Below, in pieces: positions 7,463 to 50,560 of a stretch of 64,000 bases of DNA. The DNA comes from Oecophyllibacter saccharovorans (GTDB lineage: Bacteria > Pseudomonadota > Alphaproteobacteria > Acetobacterales > Acetobacteraceae). The number at the start of each line of letters is the position of its first letter. Within the stretch, counting starts at the first letter, position 1. The stretch lies in the NCBI RefSeq assembly GCF_006542375.1, contig NZ_CP038143.1:806001-870000 (forward strand), written 5' to 3'. Made by a program: the position numbers and the translations under genes. Under the pieces are notes generated by a model. That model searched no databases, was not told the DNA's origin, and was given only the letters and a program-made list of their open reading frames with translations.

Positions 7463-8671
7463 ATGAAAGTTTCCGTCGTGCGCTCTCCTTCCTCGTCTTC
7501 CCTCCGTCTGGCGTCGCACAGCCCGAAAGCTGCCCGGCTGGCTGGTCTTCTGTTTGCCGGGCTGTGCCTGACGAGCATAGTCACAGGCGCAACGGCTGAC
7601 CGCGCTTGGGCTGCGGGGACGCTGGCGGCTGGCACGCATATGCAGGGCGAGGAGCTGGATCTCTCCGCCCCCTGTGCACAGGTGAAGATCATTGCCGATC
7701 CGGCGCTGGCTTCCGGCATTACCCTGCAGGAAAGCCACGGGGCCGCGCCGCAGGTGCAGACCACGGCCGATGGCGCCACGAAAATGCTGGGGCTGAGCCT
7801 GCGCTGCGTGCCCGGCGCACGGCTGGTGCTGCGCATCTCCCCTGCCACCATGCTGAACCTGCAGGACAGTCCGCATGCCGCTTTCACGCTCAGCGGGCCT
7901 GTGGCCGGTCTTGATGCCAACCTGACTGATGCCAGCCTGACTGCAGATCAGGTGCCCTCGCTGAGCCTGGCCCTGCACGGCACCGCAACCGCCGCGATCA
8001 GCCAGCTCAACCGGGCCGGGCAGATTGTCATGGACGGCGCCAGCACAGCCACTGTTGACCAGGCGCACCTGACCGCCCTCTCCGTGCAGGCCAGCGGCAC
8101 CGCTGCATTGCGGCTGCAGAGCGGGCAGATCGACCTGCTTGCCCTGACTGTGACGGACCAGGCGCATGCCAGCATTCTGGCCACGGTCCAGATCGCCCAT
8201 GTGAACGCTTCCGGCCATGCTGTCGTCACGCTCGGCCCGGTAACGGGCACCCTGACCAATACAGGCCCGACCACCGTTCATGCGCTTGCAAGCTCAGGAC
8301 CTGCCCCTTCAAGCGTTCCTGCCCAGCAGCCCTTACCGGCCGAGAGCCAACCTGCCGCACAGGCCGCACCTAATCCCGTCCCGCCCCAGGCGCCGCTGCC
8401 ACAGGCGCAAAACGGTAGCGGCGTACAGAACCAGAACACGCTCCAGAAGACCCAACCTCCCGCTGCCGCGCCAAGACCGGCAGCGCCTACGCAGCCCGCC
8501 CCTCTGAGCAACCATGTCGGTGCAAACCATACCGAGGCCGCCGCCACTTTCTCGGCCGCCCCTGCCGCTCCGCCTGCCCCCGATACAGCGGCCCAGGGCT
8601 TGCCCACGCACTCGGTCCCGCCTGCGCCTGCCCGGCCTGCAGCAATTGGCAGCAGCGCTTCCTCGCCCTGA
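7463..8671 (+). CDS. Exported GIN/DUF2807-like repeat protein with Pro/Ala-rich tail
   Basis: The product has 402 residues from ATG 7463. A signal peptide ends near residue 50 (AWA). Residues ~53-270 consist of short repeats alternating small and hydrophobic residues (for example LSVQASGTAALRLQSGQ, LTVTDQAHASI), the pattern of GIN/DUF2807 right-handed beta-helix heads found in surface or periplasmic proteins. Residues ~275-402 are low-complexity Pro/Ala/Gln sequence, probably disordered or cell-wall spanning. There is no recognisable enzyme motif. It is followed on the same strand by mlaE (142-base gap), so a role in the envelope with the lipid transporter is possible but only inferred from position. 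Family assignment is tentative. Confidence 0.65.
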   Translation: MKVSVVRSPSSSSLRLASHSPKAARLAGLLFAGLCLTSIVTGATADRAWAAGTLAAGTHMQGEELDLSAPCAQVKIIADPALASGITLQESHGAAPQVQTTADGATKMLGLSLRCVPGARLVLRISPATMLNLQDSPHAAFTLSGPVAGLDANLTDASLTADQVPSLSLALHGTATAAISQLNRAGQIVMDGASTATVDQAHLTALSVQASGTAALRLQSGQIDLLALTVTDQAHASILATVQIAHVNASGHAVVTLGPVTGTLTNTGPTTVHALASSGPAPSSVPAQQPLPAESQPAAQAAPNPVPPQAPLPQAQNGSGVQNQNTLQKTQPPAAAPRPAAPTQPAPLSNHVGANHTEAAATFSAAPAAPPAPDTAAQGLPTHSVPPAPARPAAIGSSASSP

Positions 8672-8813
8672 ACAAAACCGGCGTTCTGCAAACGCTCTTT
8701 TCCCTGTTTTTGTCGTGACTTTCCGGCAGTCATCGGGTCCTTTTTCATATCCTGCAGAACAGGAGCGCCGGTTGCGTTCAGGGGCTGTGCAGGATAGAGC
8801 AGGAAGGGTGCGC

Positions 8814-9593
8814 ATGTTGGAAACCCCCTTCGTCGCTCTGGGTCGTCTGGTGCTCAGCGCGTTCCGTCAGGTCGGCAGTGTGGTCCTGTTCGGGCTGCGG
8901 GGGCTGAGCGGGCTCGTACGCCCGCCTTTCTACTGGAAGATCTTCCTCTCCAGCCTGGTGAATATCGGCTTTCTTTCCCTGCCCGTCGTGGCGCTGACAG
9001 CCATTTTCGCAGGCGGGGTCATCGCCCTGCAGTCCTATACCGGGTTCAGCCAGTATCACGCCCAGAATGCCATCGCCCATATCGTCCTGCTGGCCATCAC
9101 GCGTGAGCTGGGGCCCGTTCTGGCCGGGCTGATGATCGCAGGTCGCGTCGGGGCGGCCCTGTCAGCGCAGATCGGCACGATGCGGGTCACCAACCAGATC
9201 GACGCGCTGGCCACGCTGTCGACCGATCCGATCAAATACCTCGTCACCCCCCGCCTGCTGGCCGGCACACTGGCCTTGCCCCTGCTGGTGCTGGTGGCTG
9301 ACATTCTCGGCGTTTTCGGCGGCTTCACGGTCTCAGTGGCCAAGCTGGGCTTTGCGCCTGACGCCTATATCACCGCAACGCTTTCAGGGCTCAAAGCGTC
9401 CGATGTCATTGTCGGGCTGGTCAAGGCAGCGGTCTTCGGGTTTCTGATCGCCCTTCTGGGCTGTTATTACGGCTATCACAGCAAGGGCGGCGCTGAAGGC
9501 GTTGGGGCCGCGGCAACGGCCACAGTGGTCGGCGCTTCCATCATGGTGCTGATCTTCGATTACATGCTGACCGATCTTTTCTTCACCGGCTGA
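8814..9593 (+). CDS. mlaE: MlaE-family phospholipid ABC transporter permease
   Basis: The product has 259 residues from ATG 8814, preceded by a strong AGGAAGGG (8801-8808); longer readings run through low-complexity sequence. Five to six hydrophobic segments and the family blocks (LTAIFAGGVIALQSYTGF, ITRELGPVLAGLMIAGRVGAA, GTMRVTNQIDAL) identify the MlaE/YrbE permease. With MlaF it forms the inner-membrane core that moves phospholipids between inner and outer membranes. mlaF follows after 29 bases. The substrate-holding MCE protein MlaD, usually encoded next to these two, is not seen here, and MlaB/MlaC are also absent from this locus. Confidence 0.92.
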   Translation: MLETPFVALGRLVLSAFRQVGSVVLFGLRGLSGLVRPPFYWKIFLSSLVNIGFLSLPVVALTAIFAGGVIALQSYTGFSQYHAQNAIAHIVLLAITRELGPVLAGLMIAGRVGAALSAQIGTMRVTNQIDALATLSTDPIKYLVTPRLLAGTLALPLLVLVADILGVFGGFTVSVAKLGFAPDAYITATLSGLKASDVIVGLVKAAVFGFLIALLGCYYGYHSKGGAEGVGAAATATVVGASIMVLIFDYMLTDLFFTG

Positions 9594-9622: not shown

Positions 9623-10525
9623 ATGACGATTGCAGTCCCCCAGGAAACTGAAAAAGCCCCGGCCGACATTGCCGCGCCCGCGCCTGGCCATGAACCCGTT
9701 GGCGGCACGCCCCCGGCGCAGGCGCAGAAGGGCACGGTGCCGCGCATCCGCATCCGCGGTCTGTGCAAGACCTTCGGCAGTCATGTCGTGCTGGACGGGG
9801 TCGATCTTGACGTCTGGCCCGGGGAATCCCTAGTGGTCATCGGCGGTTCAGGCACCGGCAAATCCGTGCTGCTGCGCAGCATTCTCGGCCTGCTGACCCC
9901 TGATGAAGGCAGCATCGAGATCGACGGGGTGGATATCCTCACCGCCCCTGCCGAGGAACGCGAGAAATGCCTGCAGCAGATCGGCATGCTGTTTCAGAAT
10001 GCTGCCCTGTTCGACAGCATGAGCGTGCTCGACAACATCCTCTTCGGCCTGCGGGCCAAAGCGCCGCAGACACGCAAGCTGCCCCTGCCCCGCCAACGAC
10101 AGGAGGCGCTGGAACTCCTGGCGCAGGTCGGGCTGGGGGCAAGCGTCGGGGACCTGATGCCTGCCGAACTTTCGGGCGGCATGCAGAAACGCGTCGGCCT
10201 CGCCCGTTCCCTGGCCGGTCGTCCGAGCATCCAGCTTTTTGACGAACCCACCACAGGGCTGGACCCGATCATGAGCTCGGTCATCAACCGGCTGATCGTC
10301 GATTGCGTCAAGCGCCTGGGTGCCACGGCCATCACTATCACCCACGACATGGAATCAGCCCAGGTCATCGGCACGCGCGCCGCCATGCTCTATGAAGGCA
10401 GGATCATCTGGAGCGGCCCGGCTGACAGGCTGATGGACTCAGGCAATCCTGTCGTGGAACAGTTCACCCATGGCTGGCTCAAGGGACCGATCAAGATCGA
10501 CTATCCCCTGCCGCTTTCCTCCTGA
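9623..10525 (+). CDS. mlaF: MlaF-family phospholipid ABC transporter ATPase
   Basis: The product has 300 residues from ATG 9623, with a GATGAGGA-type ribosome site just upstream. Walker A GGSGTGKS lies at 74-81, the Q-loop follows (GMLFQNAALFDS), then the signature LSGGMQKRVG, Walker B with QLFDEPTTGLDP, and the switch histidine in ITITHDM. The text around the Q-loop is typical of MlaF and distinguishes it from other importers. The first ~38 residues are an Ala/Pro-rich extension not usual in MlaF; the domain proper starts at RIRIRGLCKTFG. It partners with MlaE directly upstream; a small 70-residue gene follows. Confidence 0.92.
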   Translation: MTIAVPQETEKAPADIAAPAPGHEPVGGTPPAQAQKGTVPRIRIRGLCKTFGSHVVLDGVDLDVWPGESLVVIGGSGTGKSVLLRSILGLLTPDEGSIEIDGVDILTAPAEEREKCLQQIGMLFQNAALFDSMSVLDNILFGLRAKAPQTRKLPLPRQRQEALELLAQVGLGASVGDLMPAELSGGMQKRVGLARSLAGRPSIQLFDEPTTGLDPIMSSVINRLIVDCVKRLGATAITITHDMESAQVIGTRAAMLYEGRIIWSGPADRLMDSGNPVVEQFTHGWLKGPIKIDYPLPLSS

Positions 10526-10558
10526 ACCGTTTTTCATGTTTTCTGAAAGGACCTCCCC

Positions 10559-10771
10559 ATGAGCACGCCCGAGCTTGAAAATGCCCTCACCCGTCTCTAC
10601 ATCACCGCCATCGGCAAGGCCCTGGTCAAGAAGGGCGTGCTGAGCATCGAGGACATCACGAGCGAGATGAGCGGCATCCGGCAGGAGTTCGAGGGCCGGC
10701 CTGATTCCCGCCTCCAGGAGATCGCCACCTCCGTCGGTGATCTCATCAATGCCGTCCAGAGCTGGAAGTAA
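10559..10771 (+). CDS. Small conserved-looking protein of unknown function downstream of mlaF
   Basis: The product has 70 residues from ATG 10559, preceded by AAAGGACC (an acceptable ribosome site), 33 bases after mlaF. The composition is that of a soluble, mostly helical protein: amphipathic helices are predicted by eye at ~3-25 (ENALTRLYITAIGKALVKKG) and ~28-68. There is no signal peptide, Cys or metal motif. I do not recognise a family. Its close spacing to mlaEF suggests co-expression, and it could be a small accessory or regulatory subunit, but nothing in the sequence proves this. Confidence 0.7.
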   Translation: MSTPELENALTRLYITAIGKALVKKGVLSIEDITSEMSGIRQEFEGRPDSRLQEIATSVGDLINAVQSWK

Positions 10772-10884
10772 TGCGGAGCTCTGCAGGCGGCAATCAGCCA
10801 TTGACGCCTTCACGCCCCGGTTTTCAAAGCAGAAAAGCTGCTCTCTCCTCCATTTCAAATTCATTTTCTGAAAGATTAGTTTCC

Positions 10885-11076
10885 ATGGCCACTGAACACG
10901 ATCGCAACCATCGCCCTGAGCACCTGCACGGCCACACGAACAACACGCAGCGCAAGCAGACAGAGCGCGAAGAAGCCTGCGCCTGCCACTGCCCTGCTGC
11001 GGGCGGCACGGGCACCTGCACCTGCGGCGCCCACTGCGACTGTGGCGCTGACTGCAGCTGCAAGGCTGCCGCCTGA
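10885..11076 (+). CDS. Cys-rich metallothionein-like peptide
   Basis: The product has 63 residues from ATG 10885 (MATEHDRNHRPEH). The N-terminal half is hydrophilic and His-rich; the C-terminal half has nine cysteines in CxC-type spacing (CACHC, CTC, CDC, CSC) with interspersed His and Gly. Density and spacing resemble bacterial metallothionein-like metal-thiolate proteins that bind Zn(II), Cd(II) or Cu(I) in the cytoplasm. There is no signal peptide. The same frame stays open upstream to 10771, but that extension starts at the stop of the previous gene and has no family-like sequence, so the inner ATG is preferred although its ribosome site is weak. A strong hairpin follows. The function is inferred from composition alone. 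Confidence 0.6.
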   Translation: MATEHDRNHRPEHLHGHTNNTQRKQTEREEACACHCPAAGGTGTCTCGAHCDCGADCSCKAAA

Positions 11077-11082
11077 CCGGGC

Positions 11083-11107
11083 GAAACCTCTCTCAATAAG
11101 AGGTTTC
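11083..11107 (+). terminator. Stem-loop after the Cys-rich gene
   Basis: GAAACCTCT (11083-11091) and AGAGGTTTC (11099-11107) form a 9-base perfect stem with a 7-base loop, seven bases after the stop codon. Only AATAA follows, not a long T-run. Confidence 0.55.
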
Positions 11108-11138
11108 AATAACGGGCAGAGTGTGGTCATGAAGGGTC

Positions 11139-12572
11139 ATGGCCAGGAAACCGATCACCCGCTTCGTCTGCACCCAGTGCCAGGCCGTTTTTCCGAAATG
11201 GAACGGGCGCTGTGATGTCTGCGGCGAATGGAACACGCTGGAAGAAGAGACCGTCAGCGCCACGCCCAACCGCCCCCAGGGGGGTGCCGGCGCAGCGGCA
11301 GGCAGGCCCGGTCGGCTGGTCACGACACGGCTGGACGGCAACGCCACCCCTCCGGCACGGATCGAAACCGGCATGGCTGAGCTCAACCGCGTGCTGGGCA
11401 GCGGCCTGGTGCCGGGCTCGGTGGTGCTGGTCGGCGGTGATCCGGGTATCGGCAAGTCGACACTGATGCTGCAGACCACCTGTGCCCTGGCCCGCAGCGG
11501 CCATGACGTGCTGTATGTCTCAGGTGAAGAGGCGATCGACCAGATCCGCCTGCGTGCCCGCAGACTGGAGCTGGACGGGGACCCCAAGACCCTGGAGCGG
11601 CTGGAGCTTGCTGCCTCCATCAATGTTGCCGACATCGCCGCCTCTCTGGAGGAGGTCAAAAGCCGCAAGGTCGTGGTGATCGATTCGATCCAGACCATGT
11701 GGCTGGAAGGCGTTTCAGGCGCGCCCGGCTCGGTCAGCCAGGTGCGCAGCTGCGCTTTCGAACTCATCCGGCTGGCCAAGACCCAGGGATTCGCCCTGGT
11801 CCTGATCGGCCATGTGACCAAGGAGGGAGCGCTGGCAGGCCCGCGCGTGCTGGAGCACATGGTGGACGCCGTGCTGTATTTCGAGGGCGACCGCGGCCAC
11901 CAGTTCCGCATCCTGCGCGCTGCCAAGAACCGCTTCGGTGCGACCGATGAGATCGGCGTGTTCGCCATGACCGATGCAGGCCTGCGTGAAGTGCCCAATC
12001 CCTCAGCCCTCTTCCTGGCTGAAAGACGTGGCAACATTGCGGGGTCGGCTGTTTTCGCCGGTCTGGAAGGCACGCGCCCGGTCCTGCTGGAGATCCAGGT
12101 CCTGCTTTCAGCCAAATCAGGCGATGGGGCAGCACGCCGCGCCGTGCTGGGCTGGGACAGCGCGCGGCTGAACATGATTCTGGCCGTGCTGGAAGCGCGC
12201 TGCGGGCTGAAGCTCGCTTCGATGGACGTGCACCTGAACGTGACAGGCGGGTTGCGCATCAATGAGCCTGCAGCTGATCTGGCGGTGGCTGCAGCGCTGA
12301 TCTCAGCTGCCACCGGCCAGCCGACCGATCCCAACACGGCCTATTTCGGCGAAATTGGTCTCTCAGGTGAGATCCGCCAGGTGCCCCAGACCGGGCTGCG
12401 CCTCAAGGAGATGGCCAAGCTCGGCTTCAGAACGGCACTGCTTCCCCGCCATGTCGGCAGTGCCAGCGCCCGCCCCAAAGCCCCTGAAGGCCTGCAGCTG
12501 GAAGAGCTGGGCCATCTGGCCGATCTGATGAAAAAATTCGCCTCTCCGGCAAAAAAATCCGCAGAAGCCTGA
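11139..12572 (+). CDS. radA: DNA repair protein RadA
   Basis: The product has 477 residues from ATG 11139. RadA is a RecA-like ATPase and branch-migration helicase that processes recombination intermediates. Visible domains are an N-terminal C4 zinc finger (Cys11, Cys14, Cys25, Cys28), Walker A GGDPGIGKST at ~99-108, the RadA-specific AAKNRFG motif near 265, and a C-terminal Lon-protease-like domain (LNVTGGLRINEPAADLAVA, GEIGLSGEIRQV). Length is usual for the family (~450-480). It stands alone, with a hairpin before it and bacterioferritin after it on the same strand. Confidence 0.96.
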   Translation: MARKPITRFVCTQCQAVFPKWNGRCDVCGEWNTLEEETVSATPNRPQGGAGAAAGRPGRLVTTRLDGNATPPARIETGMAELNRVLGSGLVPGSVVLVGGDPGIGKSTLMLQTTCALARSGHDVLYVSGEEAIDQIRLRARRLELDGDPKTLERLELAASINVADIAASLEEVKSRKVVVIDSIQTMWLEGVSGAPGSVSQVRSCAFELIRLAKTQGFALVLIGHVTKEGALAGPRVLEHMVDAVLYFEGDRGHQFRILRAAKNRFGATDEIGVFAMTDAGLREVPNPSALFLAERRGNIAGSAVFAGLEGTRPVLLEIQVLLSAKSGDGAARRAVLGWDSARLNMILAVLEARCGLKLASMDVHLNVTGGLRINEPAADLAVAAALISAATGQPTDPNTAYFGEIGLSGEIRQVPQTGLRLKEMAKLGFRTALLPRHVGSASARPKAPEGLQLEELGHLADLMKKFASPAKKSAEA

Positions 12573-12763: not shown

Positions 12764-13270
12764 ATGACTTCCCAGCCCGCCGGTCGCGTCAAGGACCAGA
12801 AGGTCATCGACTATCTCAATCAGCAGCTGACCAACGAGCTGACAGCCATCAATCAGTATTTCCTCCACGCCCGGACCCTGCAGCACTGGGGCGTGACCCT
12901 TCTGGGCAAGAAGGAGTATGAGGAATCCATCGAGGAGATGCAGCATGCCGACTGGCTGACCAAGCGCATTCTCTATCTCGGCGGCCTGCCAAACCTCCAG
13001 AAGATCGGGGGCCTTCTGCTCGGCCAGAACGTGCAGGAGATCCTGGAATGCGACCTGAAGCTGGAAGTGCAGGCCATGGCCAGCCTGCGCGAGGCGATCG
13101 CCTATTGCGAATCCGTGCGTGATTACGTTTCGCGCGATCTGCTGGTCAAAATCCTCGCCAATGAGGAAGAGCACGAAGACTTCATCGACGCCCAGCTCGA
13201 TCTCATCAAGCTGGTCGGCATTGAGCGCTACATCACTCTGAACTCTGCCCCAGCGCCTGAAAGCATCTAA
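12764..13270 (+). CDS. bfr: Bacterioferritin
   Basis: The product has 168 residues from ATG 12764; about seven extra N-terminal residues precede the usual start. It stores iron as a ferric mineral in a 24-subunit cytoplasmic cage. All ferroxidase ligands of the E. coli protein are present when offset by seven: Glu25, Glu58, His61, Glu101, Glu134 and His137. The haem ligand corresponds to Met59 in EEMQHAD, so it should bind haem at subunit dimers. The iron-release partner bfd lies 1.3 kb downstream on the opposite strand. A strong terminator follows. Confidence 0.96.
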   Translation: MTSQPAGRVKDQKVIDYLNQQLTNELTAINQYFLHARTLQHWGVTLLGKKEYEESIEEMQHADWLTKRILYLGGLPNLQKIGGLLLGQNVQEILECDLKLEVQAMASLREAIAYCESVRDYVSRDLLVKILANEEEHEDFIDAQLDLIKLVGIERYITLNSAPAPESI

Positions 13271-14585: not shown

Positions 14586-14843
14586 TCAGGGCAATGACGC
14601 TACCGGGGTCACGGGCGCACATGCCGCAGCCGCGCAGGTTTCAGGGCCGTCAAGGTCCGGCGGACAGCCGGTTATGCCCTCGACCCCGCTTTCCTTCAGC
14701 AACCGGCAGATCTGGCGCGTGCATTTTCCGCAATCGGCCTGGCATTTTTTATGCGCATAGACGGCTGACGGACGGCGCGCGCCAGCCGCGATGGCGGCGG
14801 TAACATCCTTGTCCGACAGGACATTGCAGGAACAGACAATCAT
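14586..14843 (-). CDS. bfd: Bacterioferritin-associated ferredoxin
   Basis: The product has 85 residues from ATG 14843. Cys4-x-Cys6 and Cys38-x2-Cys41 match the [2Fe-2S] ligands of Bfd, the ferredoxin that docks on bacterioferritin and passes electrons to the stored ferric core to release iron. The C-terminus is extended by about 20 residues with two extra cysteines (GCP and ETCAAAAC), beyond the usual ~64-residue length. A 7-1-7 palindrome fitting a Fur operator lies 62-76 bases upstream of the start, matching the known iron-starvation induction of bfd. bfr is 1.3 kb away on the other strand. Confidence 0.9.
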   Translation of the reverse strand: MIVCSCNVLSDKDVTAAIAAGARRPSAVYAHKKCQADCGKCTRQICRLLKESGVEGITGCPPDLDGPETCAAAACAPVTPVASLP

Positions 14844-15536: not shown

Positions 15537-15662
15537 CGTCCCTCCCTTTCCTTACCTGTCTGCCCATCTGTCTGTCAGGCGCGTTTCCGCAGAAGTTCTC
15601 GGGTGTTTTTCCGCGCTGCCGGGGATGGCAAAACCCGCCCCACCCCACTAAAATCCTCTGCC

Positions 15663-18272
15663 ATGCTCACGAAACTGACCACCCGGCTCAACAACTTCTC
15701 TCTTCACCATGCTCTTGGCGTGGTGCTGGTATTTCTCGGCCTTGTACTCGGCGCCCTCTGGGTCAGTCATGACCGGCTCGGGGTCACGACCGATACCGAC
15801 CAGCTTTTCTCCAACTCCCTGGGGTGGAAAAAGCGCGTCAATACCATCGAGAAGCTCTTTCCAGGTGACAAAGACTCCCTCGTAGCGGTCATTTCAGCCG
15901 ACACGCCGGAGGAAGGCAATGAATCAGCCAAGCAGCTGGCCGCCATTCTCACGCGCGACCACAGGAATTTCAACACTGTCTCCGTGCCGGCCGACAATCC
16001 CTATTACGTGCAGCATGCCTTCGAGCTTCTGCCGGTCAAGACACTGGACGGATTGCTGAACTCCATCATTGCCGCCCAGCCCTTCCTCGGCACGCTGGCA
16101 GCTGACCCCTCAGCGCGCGGCCTGTTCAGCACCTTCGACATGATCGCAACCGGAATTGAACACGGCCAGGAGATCCCGCCCAGCTTCGATCCGGCCCTGC
16201 AGGGCATGGCCAACGCCCTGACCGCTGCTGCCGACGGCCACCCCTATCCTGTCTCCTGGCAGAGACTGCTGGCTGGCAAGGTGAGCGATCTGGGTGGTCA
16301 GTACCAGTTCGTTGTTACCCACCCCAAACGCAACTTCTCCTCCTTTGAGCCGGCGGCCGCGGCAACCCGGGCCATGCGTGCGGCCATTGACAGCCTGCCC
16401 GATGTCAAAGCCGGGCACGTGCACGCTCTCATCACGGGGGAAGCCAAGCTCAGCGATGAGGAATTCTCCACCGTCGCCAAGGGCATGGTGGTCGGGCTGG
16501 TGCTTTCACTGGCCCTGGTCACGCTCTGGTTGACCCTGGCTGTGCGTTCCCCGCGCATCATCATTCCCATCCTGATCACCCTCATCACGGGGCTGGTGCT
16601 CACGACCGGTTTTGCCGCCCTGGCGGTAGGCACGCTCAATCTCATTTCCGTTGCCTTTGCCATTCTCTTCGTCGGTATCGCGGTTGATTTCGGCATTCAG
16701 TACAGCGTGCGTTTCCGCAGCCAGGTAGCGCCTGACGGCATGCCGCTTTCCACGCTCAAGGCCTTGGCGCGCACAGGTCATGAATGCGGCGCGCAGATTC
16801 TCATCGCAGCCCTTGCCACCGCCTGCGGCTTCATGGCCTTCATTCCCACCAGTTTCGTGGGGGTCGCCCAGCTCGGCCTGATCGCAGGCGCCGGCATGCT
16901 GATCGCTTTCATCAACACCCTGACCCTCCTGCCGGCCCTGCTGGTTCTGTTCCATGCGCATCCGGCCAACAAAAGCACCGGCTTCAGCGAACTCGCACCG
17001 GTGGACCACTTTCTGCGCCGCCACCGCCCCGTCCTGCTCTGCATCTTCGGCGCGCTGGCCCTGCTGAGCCTGGCGCTGATCCCCTTCCTGTCCTTCGATT
17101 CCGACCCCCTGCACACCAAAAACCCCCATACCGAAGGCATGCGGGCGCTGCACCTGCTGGAGCAGAACCCCCTGACCACCCCTTACAGTGCCCAAGTTCT
17201 CGCTCCTGACGAAAAGACGGCAGCCCGGCTGGCGGCTGCCATCAGCAAGCTTTCAAGCGTGAATGACGTCCTGTGGCTGGGCGCGCTGGTGCCTGAGCAG
17301 CAACCCGTCAAGCGGGAAATGATTGCCGACGCCGCAGACATGCTCCTCCCTTCGCTGGATGTATCGCACCCTGCACCCCCGCCCACGGCACAGGAACTGC
17401 GGGAAAGCGCTGCCAAGGCGGCTGACGCGCTGCAATCGGTTCCGGCCGACAAGCTGAACGCGCCGCTCAAGCAGATCCTTGCCGCCCTGCGCAAGCTTGA
17501 AAAAGCCCCTGACAGCCTGCTGCTGCAGATAAATGCCGATCTCACGCGCTTCCTGCCCGATGAGCTCAATCAGCTACGCACAGCCCTCACCCTCACGCCC
17601 CCCGTCACGCTTGAGAACATCCCAGCCGACATCCGCCGCCAATACGTCACGCCGGACGGGCGTTACCTGCTGATCATCCACCCCAAGGGCCAGATGTCAG
17701 AGCCCAAGGTACTGCATCACTTCGTCAGCCAGCTCCGCACTGTCACGACCAATCTGGCCGGACCGGCAGCGGAGATCATCGGCTCAGCGCACACCATGAT
17801 TCACGCTTTCACGGTAGCCGGGCTATGCGCCATCTGCACGATCGCGCTGGTTCTGCTCATCGCCCTGCGGCGCCCGCAGGAAATGGGGCTGGTCATCGCT
17901 ACCCTGGTCATGTCGTCGCTCATGACCGTGATCGTCGTGGTCTGCTGTCACGTCTCGCTGAATTACGCCAACATCATCGCCCTGCCACTGCTTCTGGGCG
18001 TCGGCGTCTCCTTCAACATCTATTTCGTGATGAACTGGTCGGTCGGAACAAAAGACCCGCTGGTCTCGCCCACAGCCCGGGCCGTGTTGTTTTCGGCCCT
18101 GACCACCGGTTCAGCCTTCGGCTCACTGGCTCTCTCCCAGCATCCCGGCACTTCCAGCATGGGCAAGCTGCTCATGCTGTCACTGGCCTGCACCCTGTTC
18201 TGCACGCTGATCTTCCTGCCCACTCTGCTGCCCAGCAAGGCGCCTGACCCGGGCAAGGCCCATCTGCCCTGA
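15663..18272 (+). CDS. hpnN: HpnN-like hopanoid-associated RND transporter
   Basis: The product has 869 residues from ATG 15663. It has the MMPL/RND layout: one N-terminal membrane segment (~18-38), a large periplasmic domain, five segments (~275-460), a second periplasmic domain (~480-720), and five C-terminal segments. Markers are GVTTDTDQLF after the first segment, IAVDFGIQYSVRFRSQ in the first transmembrane block and GVGVSFNIYFVMNW in the second. HpnN is needed to move hopanoids to the outer membrane in alphaproteobacteria, and acetic acid bacteria are rich in hopanoids. No squalene-hopene cyclase or other hpn gene lies near it. A general lipid exporter of the same family is the alternative. 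Confidence 0.82.
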   Translation: MLTKLTTRLNNFSLHHALGVVLVFLGLVLGALWVSHDRLGVTTDTDQLFSNSLGWKKRVNTIEKLFPGDKDSLVAVISADTPEEGNESAKQLAAILTRDHRNFNTVSVPADNPYYVQHAFELLPVKTLDGLLNSIIAAQPFLGTLAADPSARGLFSTFDMIATGIEHGQEIPPSFDPALQGMANALTAAADGHPYPVSWQRLLAGKVSDLGGQYQFVVTHPKRNFSSFEPAAAATRAMRAAIDSLPDVKAGHVHALITGEAKLSDEEFSTVAKGMVVGLVLSLALVTLWLTLAVRSPRIIIPILITLITGLVLTTGFAALAVGTLNLISVAFAILFVGIAVDFGIQYSVRFRSQVAPDGMPLSTLKALARTGHECGAQILIAALATACGFMAFIPTSFVGVAQLGLIAGAGMLIAFINTLTLLPALLVLFHAHPANKSTGFSELAPVDHFLRRHRPVLLCIFGALALLSLALIPFLSFDSDPLHTKNPHTEGMRALHLLEQNPLTTPYSAQVLAPDEKTAARLAAAISKLSSVNDVLWLGALVPEQQPVKREMIADAADMLLPSLDVSHPAPPPTAQELRESAAKAADALQSVPADKLNAPLKQILAALRKLEKAPDSLLLQINADLTRFLPDELNQLRTALTLTPPVTLENIPADIRRQYVTPDGRYLLIIHPKGQMSEPKVLHHFVSQLRTVTTNLAGPAAEIIGSAHTMIHAFTVAGLCAICTIALVLLIALRRPQEMGLVIATLVMSSLMTVIVVVCCHVSLNYANIIALPLLLGVGVSFNIYFVMNWSVGTKDPLVSPTARAVLFSALTTGSAFGSLALSQHPGTSSMGKLLMLSLACTLFCTLIFLPTLLPSKAPDPGKAHLP

Positions 18273-25465: not shown

Positions 25466-27892
25466 TCAGGCGTCAGCAAAGGGAAAACGGGGATGCCAAC
25501 GATTGAGAAGCAGGGCATTGCCCACCACACAGACTGAGCTCAGTGCCATCATGGCTGAAGCGAAAACCGGACTCAGAACCCCCAAAGCGGCCAGGGGAAT
25601 GCACAGAGCGTTGTAGCCGAAAGCAAAAAAGAGATTCTGGCGGATACACCGCATCACGGCTGCCGAAAGTGACAGCGCGGGCGGCAGGGCGGCCAGGCCC
25701 CCGCGCATCAGCACGATATCAGCGCTCTCAAGCGCCAGCGCCGCGCCACTGCCCAGCGCGATCCCCAGATCGGCTTCTGCCAGGGCAGGCGCATCATTGA
25801 TGCCGTCGCCGACCATGCCGACGATCTGCCCCTCTGCCTCCAGCCGGGCGATTTCCTCCGCTTTCTGTCCCGGCAGCACACCGGCGCGCACGATTTCAAT
25901 TCCCAGCGCACGTGCCACCAGATGCGCAACGCGCGGCTGGTCGCCCGAAAGCAGGGCCGGGGTGATGCCTTCAGCAACCAGCGCCTGCAGCACCGCCCGG
26001 TCTTCAGGACGCAGACGGTCAGCAAAAGCCAGGAAGCCCACCAGCTGGGCCGGCTGGGCAGCCGTGCGTTGCCAGGCGACCGCCACTGCCGTGTGACCAA
26101 GCGTTTCCTGCCGCTCCAGCCAGGCTGTTGCTTCTGCCGTCCAGCCGACATGACGGCTTTCCAGAAAGGCGCGTGTGCCGAGCCAGGCCTGGCCGCCCTG
26201 GGGCAGCGCGCCTTCAATGCCCTGACCGGGAACAGCCCGGATGTTGACAAGCTTCGGCAGAGTGTTTTCAAGCACACTTTCCGGAATTTCTCCCGGCGTC
26301 CGTTCTTCCGCTGCCGCACGGACGGCACGTGCGAGCGGGTGTTCGGACACGCGTTCCAACGCGGCTGCCAGCGCCAGAAGAAATGTCTCGCTGTAGGGCG
26401 CTACAGCCTGGCAGGCAACAAGGCTGGGCCTGCCCTCAGTCAGGGTGCCGGTCTTGTCGAACACCAGCATGGTCAGCTTGCGTGCACGCTCCAGTGCACG
26501 GGCGCTGCGGAAGAGAATACCTGCCCGCGCTCCGCGCGCCGTGCCCACCATGATGGCTGTGGGCGTGGCCAGACCAAGCGCGCAGGGGCACGCTACCACC
26601 AGCACTGCGACTGCCCGGATCAGCGCCGGGGCAAAAGCGCCGAGCCAGATCCAGTTGCCCAGCAGCGCCAGAAGGGCGACTGCCAGCACGACCGGCACGA
26701 AAACAGCTGATATGCGGTCAGCCAGCGTCTGGATATCGGCCTTGCTGGCCTGGGCGCGCGCCACGAGCTGGACGATGCGGGCCAGTTCGGTCGTCTCGCC
26801 CGCCTGCTCCACCCGCACGCCAAGCGCACCGAGCCGGTTGATCGCCCCGGCAAGCACCTGCTGGCCCGGCCCGCGTTCCACAGGCATCGACTCACCGCTC
26901 AACAGAGATTCATCAAGCTCGGAAATGCCGTGCAGCACGGTTCCGTCCGCTGGCACGGTTTCACCCGGGCGCACAATAACCACCTGTCCCGGCTGCAGCT
27001 GGCCTGCGGGCACATCCACCAACAGCGTCTCGCCGTCCGGGCCGGGGCTCTCGAGATGCGCCATGACGGGCCGGGCCTGCAGCAGATGGGCCAGGCCTGC
27101 CCGCGCACTGTTGCGCGCCTGCAGCTCCAGCCACCTTCCCAGCAGCACCAGGGTGATCACCGTGGCCCCGGAATCGAAATAAAGCGGTTGCGGCAACCTG
27201 AACGCCATGACCGCCACGCTCCAGCACCAGGCGGCGAAAGAACCCAGGATCACCAGCACGTCCATATTGGCCCCGCCGTGCCGCAGCGCCGCCCAGCCCT
27301 GCCGCCAGAAGCGGCGCGCGCACCAGAACTGCACCACACTGGCCAGAACCAGCTGCACCCAGGGTGGCGGCATCAGGTCACCGCACCCTGGAAGCATGGG
27401 CAGTATCAGAGGCAGCGTGCACATCAGCGCAACAGTGAAATCGGCCAGGATCAGGAAGCCCTGTCTGCCGCTCTTTCCGTTTTCTCCAGCAAGCCTGGAG
27501 AAAGGCCTTTTCCCGCTTTCAGAAGCCGCCGGGCCTGGAGGGGCACCTGCGGCCTGCTGCAGGTTTTCTTCCGGCAGCGCTGTAAATCCGGCTTTTCCGA
27601 CCGCCTGCACGACTTCATGCACCAGCAGTTCTTTCTGCGCGTGTGACAACGCATCAGGGATCAGCAGTTGGGCGGTGCCGGTGGCGAAGCTGACATTCAC
27701 CTCGTGGCTCGCCGCCTCTTCGGCACCCGCCTGGCCATCAGGGGCGGGAGAAGACTGAAAAAAGGAAGTAAGCACGCGACCGAGCACGCGCTGCAGACGC
27801 ACCGCACAGGCGGCGCAACTCATGCCCTCTATCTTGAAAACCACCGGCTTGAAAACCACCGGCCTGTAAGCTGGCGCCTGGTCTGCCTTCAT
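25466..27892 (-). CDS. copA: Copper-type P1B ATPase
   Basis: The product has 808 residues from ATG 27892. One N-terminal HMA domain has GMSCAAC (Cys26, Cys29); the membrane metal site is CPC in VVACPCALGLATP (about residue 435), the phosphorylated Asp lies in DKTGTLTEG (about 480), and GDGINDAPAL and the SEHPL motif of the nucleotide domain are present. CPC with the following transmembrane pattern indicates a Cu(I) exporter. Residues 11-20 are a perfect PVVFK duplication caused by a 15-base tandem repeat. Its start overlaps the hisD stop (ATGA), an unusual partner. No CueR-type operator is visible because there is no gap. Confidence 0.93.
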   Translation of the reverse strand: MKADQAPAYRPVVFKPVVFKIEGMSCAACAVRLQRVLGRVLTSFFQSSPAPDGQAGAEEAASHEVNVSFATGTAQLLIPDALSHAQKELLVHEVVQAVGKAGFTALPEENLQQAAGAPPGPAASESGKRPFSRLAGENGKSGRQGFLILADFTVALMCTLPLILPMLPGCGDLMPPPWVQLVLASVVQFWCARRFWRQGWAALRHGGANMDVLVILGSFAAWCWSVAVMAFRLPQPLYFDSGATVITLVLLGRWLELQARNSARAGLAHLLQARPVMAHLESPGPDGETLLVDVPAGQLQPGQVVIVRPGETVPADGTVLHGISELDESLLSGESMPVERGPGQQVLAGAINRLGALGVRVEQAGETTELARIVQLVARAQASKADIQTLADRISAVFVPVVLAVALLALLGNWIWLGAFAPALIRAVAVLVVACPCALGLATPTAIMVGTARGARAGILFRSARALERARKLTMLVFDKTGTLTEGRPSLVACQAVAPYSETFLLALAAALERVSEHPLARAVRAAAEERTPGEIPESVLENTLPKLVNIRAVPGQGIEGALPQGGQAWLGTRAFLESRHVGWTAEATAWLERQETLGHTAVAVAWQRTAAQPAQLVGFLAFADRLRPEDRAVLQALVAEGITPALLSGDQPRVAHLVARALGIEIVRAGVLPGQKAEEIARLEAEGQIVGMVGDGINDAPALAEADLGIALGSGAALALESADIVLMRGGLAALPPALSLSAAVMRCIRQNLFFAFGYNALCIPLAALGVLSPVFASAMMALSSVCVVGNALLLNRWHPRFPFADA

Positions 27893-47428: not shown

Positions 47429-50400
47429 ATGCGCATCGCAGCTTTCATCACCTGGTGTTTTGAACGCCCGAAAGCCATCTTCTTCCTGAGCGTGCTGCTG
47501 CTTATGGGAGGGTGGGCCGCATGGCGCAATCTGCCGGTGGAAGCTTATCCCGATCTCGGCCCTGTCACGGTGATCATCACCACTCAGATGCCGGGCCTTG
47601 CCGCTGAGGAAATGGAGCAGCAGGTCACCATCCCGCTGGAGCGGGCTCTGGCCAGCGTTCCCAACGTGACTGAAAGCCGCTCCAGCAGCACGTTCGGCCT
47701 GTCGCTGATCACCCTGATCTTCCGTGACGGCACCAATGTGTTCCTGGCCCGCCAGCAGGTCCTGGCGCAGCTGGCCACCGTTCCGCTGAGCAACGGGGCC
47801 GAGCCGGAGCTGGGACCGATCTCGGGGCCAAGCGGGGAGATCTACCGCTACACCCTGGAATCGGACCAGGAAAACCTGATGGCGCTGTCAGATGCGCAAC
47901 GCTGGATCGTCATTCCGGCCCTGCAACGCGTTCCGGGCATTGTGGACGTGGCCAATTTCGGCGGGTTCACCAAGGAATACCAGCTGGTTCTCGCCCCCAA
48001 CGCCCTGGTGCGCTACGGCGTCAGCCTGCAGGACGTCATCAACGCGCTCAAGAACAGCAACACCGATGCTGGGGGCGGGCGTGTCTCGCGCGGCGAGCAA
48101 TCCTACATCATCCGCGGCATCGGGCTGCTGCACTCCCTTGACGACATGGGCAAGGTGGTCGTCACGCAGCACAATGGCGTGCCGGTCCTGATCCGCGACC
48201 TGGGGCGGGTTGAATTCGGCCACCAGATCCGCCAGGGCCTGGTCGGCAAGGACCGCAACCCCGACACGGTGGAGGGGGTGGTGACCATGCTGCGCGACGC
48301 CAATCCCTCGCAGGTTCTCAATGACCTCCATGCCACGGTCGAGAAGCTCCAGCACCGTCTGGCGCCCATGCACATGCGCATCGTGCCTTATCTGGACCGC
48401 GACAACCTTGTTCACGCCACGATCGAGAAGGTGGGCGAGACCATCACCGAAGGCGTGCTGCTGGTTCTGGTCATTCTGACCTTCTTTCTCGGCTCTCCCC
48501 GCTGCGCCGTGATCACGGCCCTCACCATTCCCTTCGCGCTCGCCGTGGCGTTTCTGCTCATGCAGGCCTTCAGCATGCCGGCCAACCTGTTCTCTCTCGG
48601 GGCCATTGATTTCGGCGTGATCGTGGATGGCGCCATCGTGGTTGCCGAATCCCTGCTGCGCCTGCGTGAAGATGAACCCGGCCAGCTGCTCAACAAGTCG
48701 CTGGCACTCGAGGTCACGTGCCGGGCCGGGCGGGCCATCTTCACCTCGACCATGATCATCATCGTTGCCTACAGCCCGCTGTTCGCCTTTCAGAACATCG
48801 AAGGCAAGCTGATGCATCCGATGGCCTTCACAGTCAGTTTCGCCCTGCTGGGGGCCCTGCTCTGCGCTCTCGCCCTTACGCCCACCCTGACCTATCTGGC
48901 ACTGCGCAAGCCCGGAAAGATCTGGCACAACAAGTTTCTCGACTGGGTCCAGAAGGCTTATCGCCACACGCTGGACCACTTCCTCAACCGTCCGCTGCCG
49001 ATCTATCTCGGCGCTGCAGGCGCGCTGGTGGCGGTCGTGTTTCTGGGCGCACGCACGGGACGGGAATTCATGCCCGATCTCGATGAGGGCGCGCTGTGGC
49101 TGCAGGTGCAGATGCCCACCGCCATCGCCCTCAATGACGCAGCGGAACTGGCCAACAAGCTACGCACCGTCGTCCGCTCCTTTCCTGAGACGTCCTATGC
49201 CGTCACCCAGCTTGGCCGCTCCGATGACGGCACTGATCCCTGGACGCCTTCGCATGTGGAAATGCCGGTCGGGCTGATCCCCTACAGCCAGTGGCCACGC
49301 GGCGAGACCAAGGAGATGATGGTCGAGCGACTGCATACGGCCCTGGCCGAGAAAGTGCCGGGCATCACTTTTGACATCACCCAGCCCATTCAGGACAGCA
49401 TCGACGACATGATGGCCGGCGCGCACAGCCCCCTGGTGCTGCGCGTCTACGGCGACGACTTTCAGGAACTGCGACGTCTGGGGCAGAAGATCGTCGACGT
49501 TCTGTGGAAAGTGCCGGGCACCACACAGGCCGACATCTATCAGGAGCCGCGCATTCCGCAGATCCAGATCACGGCTGACCGGCTGCGCGCCGCCCGCTAC
49601 GGCGTCAGCGTCAATGACATCGCCGATGTCGTGACCTACGCCATCGGCGACGGCCCGATCACCAGCGTGATGGACGGGCCCCGCATCTACAATGCCACCC
49701 TGCATGTCGGCCAGCCCACGCTCGACAACTTGCAAGCCTTGGGCCAGCTGCCGATCATGACGAGCGCCAAAACGGCCATTCCTCTTTCGGAAGTGGCTGA
49801 CATCCGGCTACACATGGGCGAAAGCAACATCGCCCACCAGCTGGGCGAGCGCCAGATCACCATTCAGGTCAGCAGCGGCAACCGCCCGATGTCGCAGTAT
49901 CTTGACGATGCGCGCGCGCGCATCGCCAAGGAGGTCAAGTATGATCCCGAAGCCTATCATCTGGAATGGGCCGGAACCTTCCAGCAGGAACAGCGCGCGC
50001 AGGACCGGTTGATCAAGGCGCTGGGCGTGGTGTTCCTGGTCATGATCGGCCTGCTCTACATGGAGTTCCACCAGCTCAGAATGGCTCTGCTCATTCTGGG
50101 CACCGTGCCCCTGGCGACCCTTGGCGGGCTGATCGCGCTTCATCTCCGACATGACACGCTCAACATCGCAACAGCCGTCGGGTTCATCGCCCTCTTCGGT
50201 GTGGCGATCCAGAACGGCATCATCATGCTTTCAAGCATCGGCCGCCACCGCCTGAGCGGCCGCGCCATTCACGAAGCCACCCTCAACGGTGCCGTCGAGC
50301 GCCTGCGGCCTGTCCTTACCACAGCGACCGTGGCGACAGCCGGCATGCTGCCAGCGGCCCTGGCAACGGGCATCGGCACCAATGTGCAGCGCGGCCTGGC

Positions 50401-50560
50401 AACGGTGGTGGTCGGCGGCCTTGGCATTGCCACCCTGCTTACCCTCTTCATCCTTCCCGTTCTCTATTGCCGGATGGAGGAATCCGTGGCCCGGCACATC
50501 CTGCGCAAAGAGGAAAAAATGAAGGCGCGCCAAGCACAGGCGGGAGGAGAATCAGCGTGA
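47429..50560 (+). CDS. Heavy-metal RND efflux pump, CzcA-type
   Basis: The product has 1043 residues from ATG 47429. It is the proton-driven inner-membrane pump of a tripartite metal exporter. The transmembrane segment IDFGVIVDGAIVVAES contains Asp394, Asp400 and Glu407, the exact spacing of the CzcA proton-relay residues D402, D408 and E415. This favours divalent cations (Co2+, Zn2+, Cd2+, Ni2+) over CusA-type Cu(I)/Ag(I), although the metal is inferred. The N-terminus (ERPKAIFFLSVLLLMGGW, LPVEAYPDL) and two periplasmic lobes are complete. The stop overlaps the start of the outer-membrane factor gene. Confidence 0.92.
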   Translation: MRIAAFITWCFERPKAIFFLSVLLLMGGWAAWRNLPVEAYPDLGPVTVIITTQMPGLAAEEMEQQVTIPLERALASVPNVTESRSSSTFGLSLITLIFRDGTNVFLARQQVLAQLATVPLSNGAEPELGPISGPSGEIYRYTLESDQENLMALSDAQRWIVIPALQRVPGIVDVANFGGFTKEYQLVLAPNALVRYGVSLQDVINALKNSNTDAGGGRVSRGEQSYIIRGIGLLHSLDDMGKVVVTQHNGVPVLIRDLGRVEFGHQIRQGLVGKDRNPDTVEGVVTMLRDANPSQVLNDLHATVEKLQHRLAPMHMRIVPYLDRDNLVHATIEKVGETITEGVLLVLVILTFFLGSPRCAVITALTIPFALAVAFLLMQAFSMPANLFSLGAIDFGVIVDGAIVVAESLLRLREDEPGQLLNKSLALEVTCRAGRAIFTSTMIIIVAYSPLFAFQNIEGKLMHPMAFTVSFALLGALLCALALTPTLTYLALRKPGKIWHNKFLDWVQKAYRHTLDHFLNRPLPIYLGAAGALVAVVFLGARTGREFMPDLDEGALWLQVQMPTAIALNDAAELANKLRTVVRSFPETSYAVTQLGRSDDGTDPWTPSHVEMPVGLIPYSQWPRGETKEMMVERLHTALAEKVPGITFDITQPIQDSIDDMMAGAHSPLVLRVYGDDFQELRRLGQKIVDVLWKVPGTTQADIYQEPRIPQIQITADRLRAARYGVSVNDIADVVTYAIGDGPITSVMDGPRIYNATLHVGQPTLDNLQALGQLPIMTSAKTAIPLSEVADIRLHMGESNIAHQLGERQITIQVSSGNRPMSQYLDDARARIAKEVKYDPEAYHLEWAGTFQQEQRAQDRLIKALGVVFLVMIGLLYMEFHQLRMALLILGTVPLATLGGLIALHLRHDTLNIATAVGFIALFGVAIQNGIIMLSSIGRHRLSGRAIHEATLNGAVERLRPVLTTATVATAGMLPAALATGIGTNVQRGLATVVVGGLGIATLLTLFILPVLYCRMEESVARHILRKEEKMKARQAQAGGESA

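Follow-up and report, generated by a model that had tools for sequence, protein, structure and literature searches.

The window (the whole stretch of 64,000 nucleotides analysed; GC content 63%) carries a run of six frames, all on the + strand, in the order mlaE-like, mlaF-like, 70-aa ORF, Cys ORF, radA and bacterioferritin. The Cys ORF, a short frame rich in cysteine, lies together with the 70-aa ORF in the gap that separates radA from the mlaF-like gene. The features discussed below are as follows.

8514-9593, + strand: mlaE-like frame (tentative name)
9623-10525, + strand: mlaF-like ABC ATPase, the upstream flank (Pfam ABC_tran, 112.6 bits; cut-off 25)
10539-10549, + strand: leader word TTTTCTGAAAG, starting 20 nt upstream of the 70-aa ORF's ATG
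10559-10771, + strand: orphan ORF of 70 aa with a strong codon signal (GC3 0.87)
10864-10874, + strand: leader word TTTTCTGAAAG, starting 21 nt upstream of the Cys ORF's ATG
10885-11076, + strand: Cys ORF, putative metal-thiolate protein with nine Cys and seven His (63 residues plus stop, ATG start)
11083-11107, + strand: perfect hairpin (9 bp, loop of 7 nt), downstream of the Cys ORF and ahead of radA
11139-12572, + strand: radA, the downstream flank (TIGR00416, 532.5 bits; cut-off 403)
12764-13270, + strand: bacterioferritin (TIGR00754, 205.6 bits; cut-off 125.6)
15603-18272: HpnN, hopanoid-associated (TIGR03480, 931.3 bits; cut-off 751.85)
25466-27892, - strand: copper-type P1B ATPase (TIGR01511, above cut-off)
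47429-50560, + strand: CusA/CzcA-type RND pump (TIGR00914, above cut-off)

Translation of the Cys ORF, MATEHDRNHRPEHLHGHTNNTQRKQTEREEACACHCPAAGGTGTCTCGAHCDCGADCSCKAAA, gives a hydrophilic peptide of 6.66 kDa (pI 6.3, GRAVY -0.93) with zero aromatic residues and one Leu. All nine Cys (positions 32, 34, 36, 45, 47, 51, 53, 57 and 59) fall into a single block in the C-terminal half, spaced as CxCxC and then as CxC-x3-CxC-x3-CxC. The N-terminal half is His-rich, charged and free of Cys; the seven His stand at positions 5, 9, 13, 15, 17, 35 and 50. Inspection by eye revealed no signal peptide or other export signal, no membrane segment and no strong ribosome-binding site.

The initial annotation had described nine Cys in CxC spacing behind a His-rich N-terminus at this place, and its coordinates, frame and composition proved exact. 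It had also put the peptide 'behind mlaEF'; an mlaF-like ABC ATPase does lie upstream, with the 70-aa ORF in between, but mlaF is a weak name by profile, the protein scoring 158.6 bits with the NCBIfam model for MlaF (NF008809), under the cut-off of 441. Likewise, the CopA and RND metal exporter it had noted in the window are both real by profile (the P1B ATPase is also above cut-off for the cadmium model TIGR01512); however, they are about 14 and 36 kb off, and the RND-like protein nearest to the Cys ORF is HpnN. We regard this metal-pump context as weak support for a metal role. No metal regulator gene adjoins the Cys ORF, its neighbours being the ABC ATPase, the 70-aa orphan and radA, on the same strand.

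We took 10885 as the start of the Cys ORF. A reading of 101 aa would result from an alternative ATG, at 10771, which overlaps the 70-aa ORF's stop; the 38 codons thereby added score -0.233, with 0.2% of 412 true segments at or below this value, and by the codon usage of these codons the longer reading was rejected.

The leader word TTTTCTGAAAG has no further copy in the window on either strand. With 11 nt it is the longest word common to two leaders in 1176 pairs of window leaders, with mechanically assigned starts for the remaining genes; the next longest has 9 nt. Genome-wide, we saw 8 copies versus 2 of the reversed control; besides the two in the window, one of these 8 is placed 29 nt ahead of a long ORF, TypA-like by eye. 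A role as a regulon motif was rejected, as only two of the 8 copies sit 20-21 nt before an ATG. One may speculate that the sharing of the word reflects a copied translation-start region. A scan of positions 10400-11300 gave no promoter-like site, no terminator-like site and no Rfam match; repeats of at least 12 nt were also absent from this stretch.

Two observations concern the surroundings. An ORF at 14586-14843 (- strand), 1.3 kb from the bacterioferritin gene, looks by eye like a bacterioferritin-associated ferredoxin. Also, 16S rRNA was not found in the two contigs of the window's genome, with a control search that was positive in no more than 9 out of 14 genomes; an rrn operon carried on a plasmid, as in Oecophyllibacter, would fit.

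Cys density and codon usage

The window has 1211 stop-to-stop segments with a length of 30 aa or above, and of these the Cys ORF segment has the highest Cys density; the runners-up are three segments with 8 Cys per 30 aa. In 60 windows of 64 kb generated by an order-2 Markov model, the maximum number of Cys per 30 aa was 6 in 16 windows, 7 in 37, 8 in 6 and 9 in one. Since nine Cys per 30 aa did appear in 1 of 60 simulated windows, and the genome, at 1.94 Mb, amounts to about 30 windows of this size, a Cys count this high, taken by itself, does not exceed what chance could give.

Codon choice was assessed with a model trained on the long ORFs of the window. The Cys ORF has a synonymous log-likelihood of -69.9, and none of 5000 random recodings of the same peptide reached this value at any of the four GC settings, for which the null means were -105.0 (GC 0.58), -100.7 (0.63), -96.5 (0.68) and -93.0 (0.72). 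Per codon, its synonymous score is 0.236 versus a mean of 0.187 for 242 true segments of 63 codons, while antisense frames of real genes have a 95th percentile of 0.239. The other five frames at the Cys ORF score lower on synonymous codons, the best of them, the antisense frame, at 0.098. When the Cys half is scored separately, sense frame +2 has a higher synonymous score than the Cys frame (0.321 versus 0.259), but this frame contains a stop.

On the full codon score, in which amino-acid composition also counts, the order is different: the antisense frame, also open, reaches 0.224 versus 0.115 for the sense frame (true segments have a mean of 0.343 and a 5th percentile of 0.023). This result, the nine-Cys density met once in the simulation and the absence of a relative in any search (see below) are what one would see if the Cys ORF were a non-functional or chance reading of GC-rich spacer DNA, either in decay or of recent origin, and stop-free and Cys-rich by accident. 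Such an origin agrees poorly with synonymous codons that beat every recoding at every GC tested, with the regular spacing of the Cys and with a strand and order common to the neighbours; we consider it unlikely, though it has to be kept in mind. What raises the Cys ORF above chance is codon choice along with its placement in sense-strand space that no longer gene claims. The Cys ORF is probably, not certainly, a real coding gene.

The locus in relatives and searches for homologues

RadA was matched in 389 of 397 genomes of the family, and synteny was compared in a sample made of the window's own genome and the 29 best other radA loci, the genus being represented by one species only. In 28 of the 29 relatives a frame with the LSGG and DEP motifs of an ABC ATPase lies directly upstream of radA; in the 29th (L045) no such frame was present within 1.5 kb of radA. 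The gap between the two genes is 1-11 bp in 15 of the 28 relatives, 54 and 91 bp in two and 230-381 bp in eleven, whereas in the window's genome it is 613 bp and holds the two orphan ORFs. The simplest reading of the sequences is an insertion in this lineage. A second copy of the 613 bp was not found in the genome, where the best other match covers 23 bases (E 0.085).

No gap among the 29 relatives contains an ORF like the 70-aa ORF or the Cys ORF. In locus L043 the gap contains a short reading (29 aa, six Cys) rich in Ser, Arg and Cys; next to it is a hydrophobic ORF, and ORFs of this kind are present in the gaps of other relatives too. When any frame within 1.5 kb upstream of radA is allowed, the number of Cys per 30 aa rises to 7 in L018 and in L030 and to 8 in L044; these readings do not have the paired spacing.

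For the 70-aa ORF, Pfam, NCBIfam and PHROGs gave no family above cut-off, and a search of 299 family genomes at E <= 0.001 returned its own genome only; among 40 relatives there was a single weak match besides itself (E 0.077, 25% identity). One could think of the Cys ORF product as a partner of this orphan protein, for instance one that carries a cofactor (redox or metal) in the metabolism of iron or of membranes, and not a metal buffer: both ORFs share the 613-bp gap, both are preceded by the same 11-nt word at near-equal distance from the ATG, and bacterioferritin is encoded 1.7 kb downstream of the Cys ORF. The 70-aa protein, however, is free of Cys and confined to one of 299 genomes, no domain is found and no pairing is conserved, so that we hold the partnership to be improbable.

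The Cys ORF protein itself had no match in Pfam, NCBIfam and PHROGs at E <= 1 and none among PDB sequences at E <= 10; a three-sequence profile gave one non-significant PDB match (E 1.2). The view of the initial annotation that the peptide is hard to annotate and may be new agrees with these family libraries, which give it no name. The profile search against bacterial metallothioneins that it had proposed was negative: PF02069 (SmtA-type) matched neither the Cys ORF at E <= 1 nor anything in the window's whole genome at E <= 10 (as a control, the model was found in 4 of 14 known genomes, including S. elongatus, and above cut-off in one).

In 299 family genomes the full-length protein matched in 11 at E <= 0.01, namely itself and ten others; the ten were rejected as homologues, since the paired CxC series is missing in all of them when read in frame. 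The 35-aa Cys part had matches in 4 genomes out of 385 from the class and in 5 out of 398 from the phylum; both counts include its own genome as well as two further ones, G463 and G697. Three of these loci (L049, L062 and L063) were set aside as chance frames. No full-length relative turned up in the sampled genomes. A search with the back-translated pattern yielded 102 stretches in the collection genome_contigs and 7 in viral_contigs, none of which was confirmed. There was no tblastn match in plasmids and phages; with the BLAST low-complexity filter on, these are weak negatives. A blastn search of plasmids with positions 10400-11300 returned 6 records: four match where radA starts, and the other two are short (39 and 33 bases); the short match inside the Cys ORF lies in an unrelated Streptomyces gene and was rejected. 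In open-licence literature on metallothionein and Acetobacteraceae no title named such a protein, and for metallothionein combined with acetic-acid-bacterium genera the word metallothionein was absent among the matches listed.

The Cys block recurs in other proteins. The only class or phylum matches that look like real proteins, L047 and L048, come from one genus with 0.9-Mb genomes; they show a CxCGxxCxCGxxCxC block followed by a hydrophobic segment and, by eye, an EF-hand-like tail. The same protein was found in a MAG of Candidatus Enterousia (L050), the one confirmed locus of 233 stretches. Aligned with the Cys ORF, the three sequences have 10 invariant columns and 32% identity over the aligned stretch; the resemblance is restricted to the Cys block, which in their case is part of a longer protein. 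A viral locus (L051) with a long open frame and four Cys in the match was taken as chance. Two viral contigs (L052 and L053, at 2501-2578) have a similar Cys-rich CxC stretch in a 322-aa protein with, by eye, a thioredoxin-like part. Recurrence in unrelated proteins is expected of a useful metal-binding block, and we read it as probable convergent use of a compact one.

A metallothionein-like reading and known metal-binding systems

On balance we lean towards the reading that the Cys ORF encodes a translated, lineage-specific cytosolic peptide working like a metallothionein, outside the SmtA family. We infer that this peptide is made, stays in the cytosol and binds metal there, chelation of a thiophilic metal being the most likely activity. 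The nine Cys would enclose one small metal-thiolate cluster, either unaided or together with His35 and His50. Its load could be 3-4 Zn/Cd ions or some six Cu(I), by analogy with the Zn3Cys9His cluster described for the P. fluorescens metallothionein (PMC7387436) and with the capacity of up to six Cu(I) predicted for MymT, the mycobacterial copper metallothionein (PMC7558416). The His-rich N-terminus may add weaker, exchangeable metal sites, and the role might be metal buffering or detoxification. Counterpoints are that no homologue was found, that no metal regulator is adjacent and that the antisense frame is ahead on the full codon score.

The metal-thiolate interpretation of the initial annotation stands in that the ORF is likely coding and its composition fits, but membership in the SmtA-type family (PF02069) was not supported; taken together, the observation is confirmed and the interpretation partly supported, and on the sequence at hand a putative orphan metallothionein-like protein is probable. 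It is possible, and we say so tentatively, that the whole would amount to a metallothionein born in a lineage of acetic-acid-type bacteria, with 613 bp inserted, two genes unseen elsewhere and a nine-Cys/seven-His metal-thiolate protein independent of SmtA.

CutF and CruR, described as small metal-sensing ORFs controlling the next gene (PMC9973294, PMC9426467), would be the precedent for a leader ORF whose translation senses metal or Cys and controls radA via the hairpin at 11083-11107; they too are small Cys-containing ORFs with a hairpin before the next gene, but the Cys ORF has no CxxC, no export signal seen by eye, no C-terminal proline motif and no DUF2946 match, radA is not a metal-transport gene, and the hairpin stretch (11070-11138) is of ordinary stability (z -1.67; 11 of 200 shuffles fold equally well or better), so that the model fits poorly and such control is highly improbable.

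If the Cys ORF is real, an individual lineage can give rise to metallothionein-like proteins that are not of the zinc-finger type, and the family libraries tested here miss short ORFs of such biased composition. A 2020 paper counts only two bacterial metallothioneins whose biological function had been investigated (PMC7387436).

The SmtA-type metallothioneins, those of Pseudomonas included, are like the Cys ORF product small, Cys-rich and furnished with His, and the P. fluorescens protein, as described, also has nine Cys. The Cys ORF differs from them in having no PF02069 match and in its confinement of Cys to one C-terminal block. In the folded bacterial metallothioneins studied, a GATA-type zinc-finger fold is described (PMC10612145); with no aromatic residue and one Leu, the Cys ORF peptide would lack a core for such a fold. 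For its lack of aromatic residues and of a PF02069 match we do not file it with the SmtA family. Cyanobacterial metallothionein genes are adjoined by a divergent SmtB-type repressor, whereas the Cys ORF is not; Pseudomonas metallothioneins are also without one.

The CxC-rich metallothioneins of fungi and animals have repeated CxC, a CxCx3CxC spacing and no hydrophobic residues. The Cys ORF stands apart from them as a bacterial sequence with a His-rich N-terminal half and without a PDB sequence match. MymT resembles it, by description only, as a short Cys-rich peptide encoded by an easily missed ORF.
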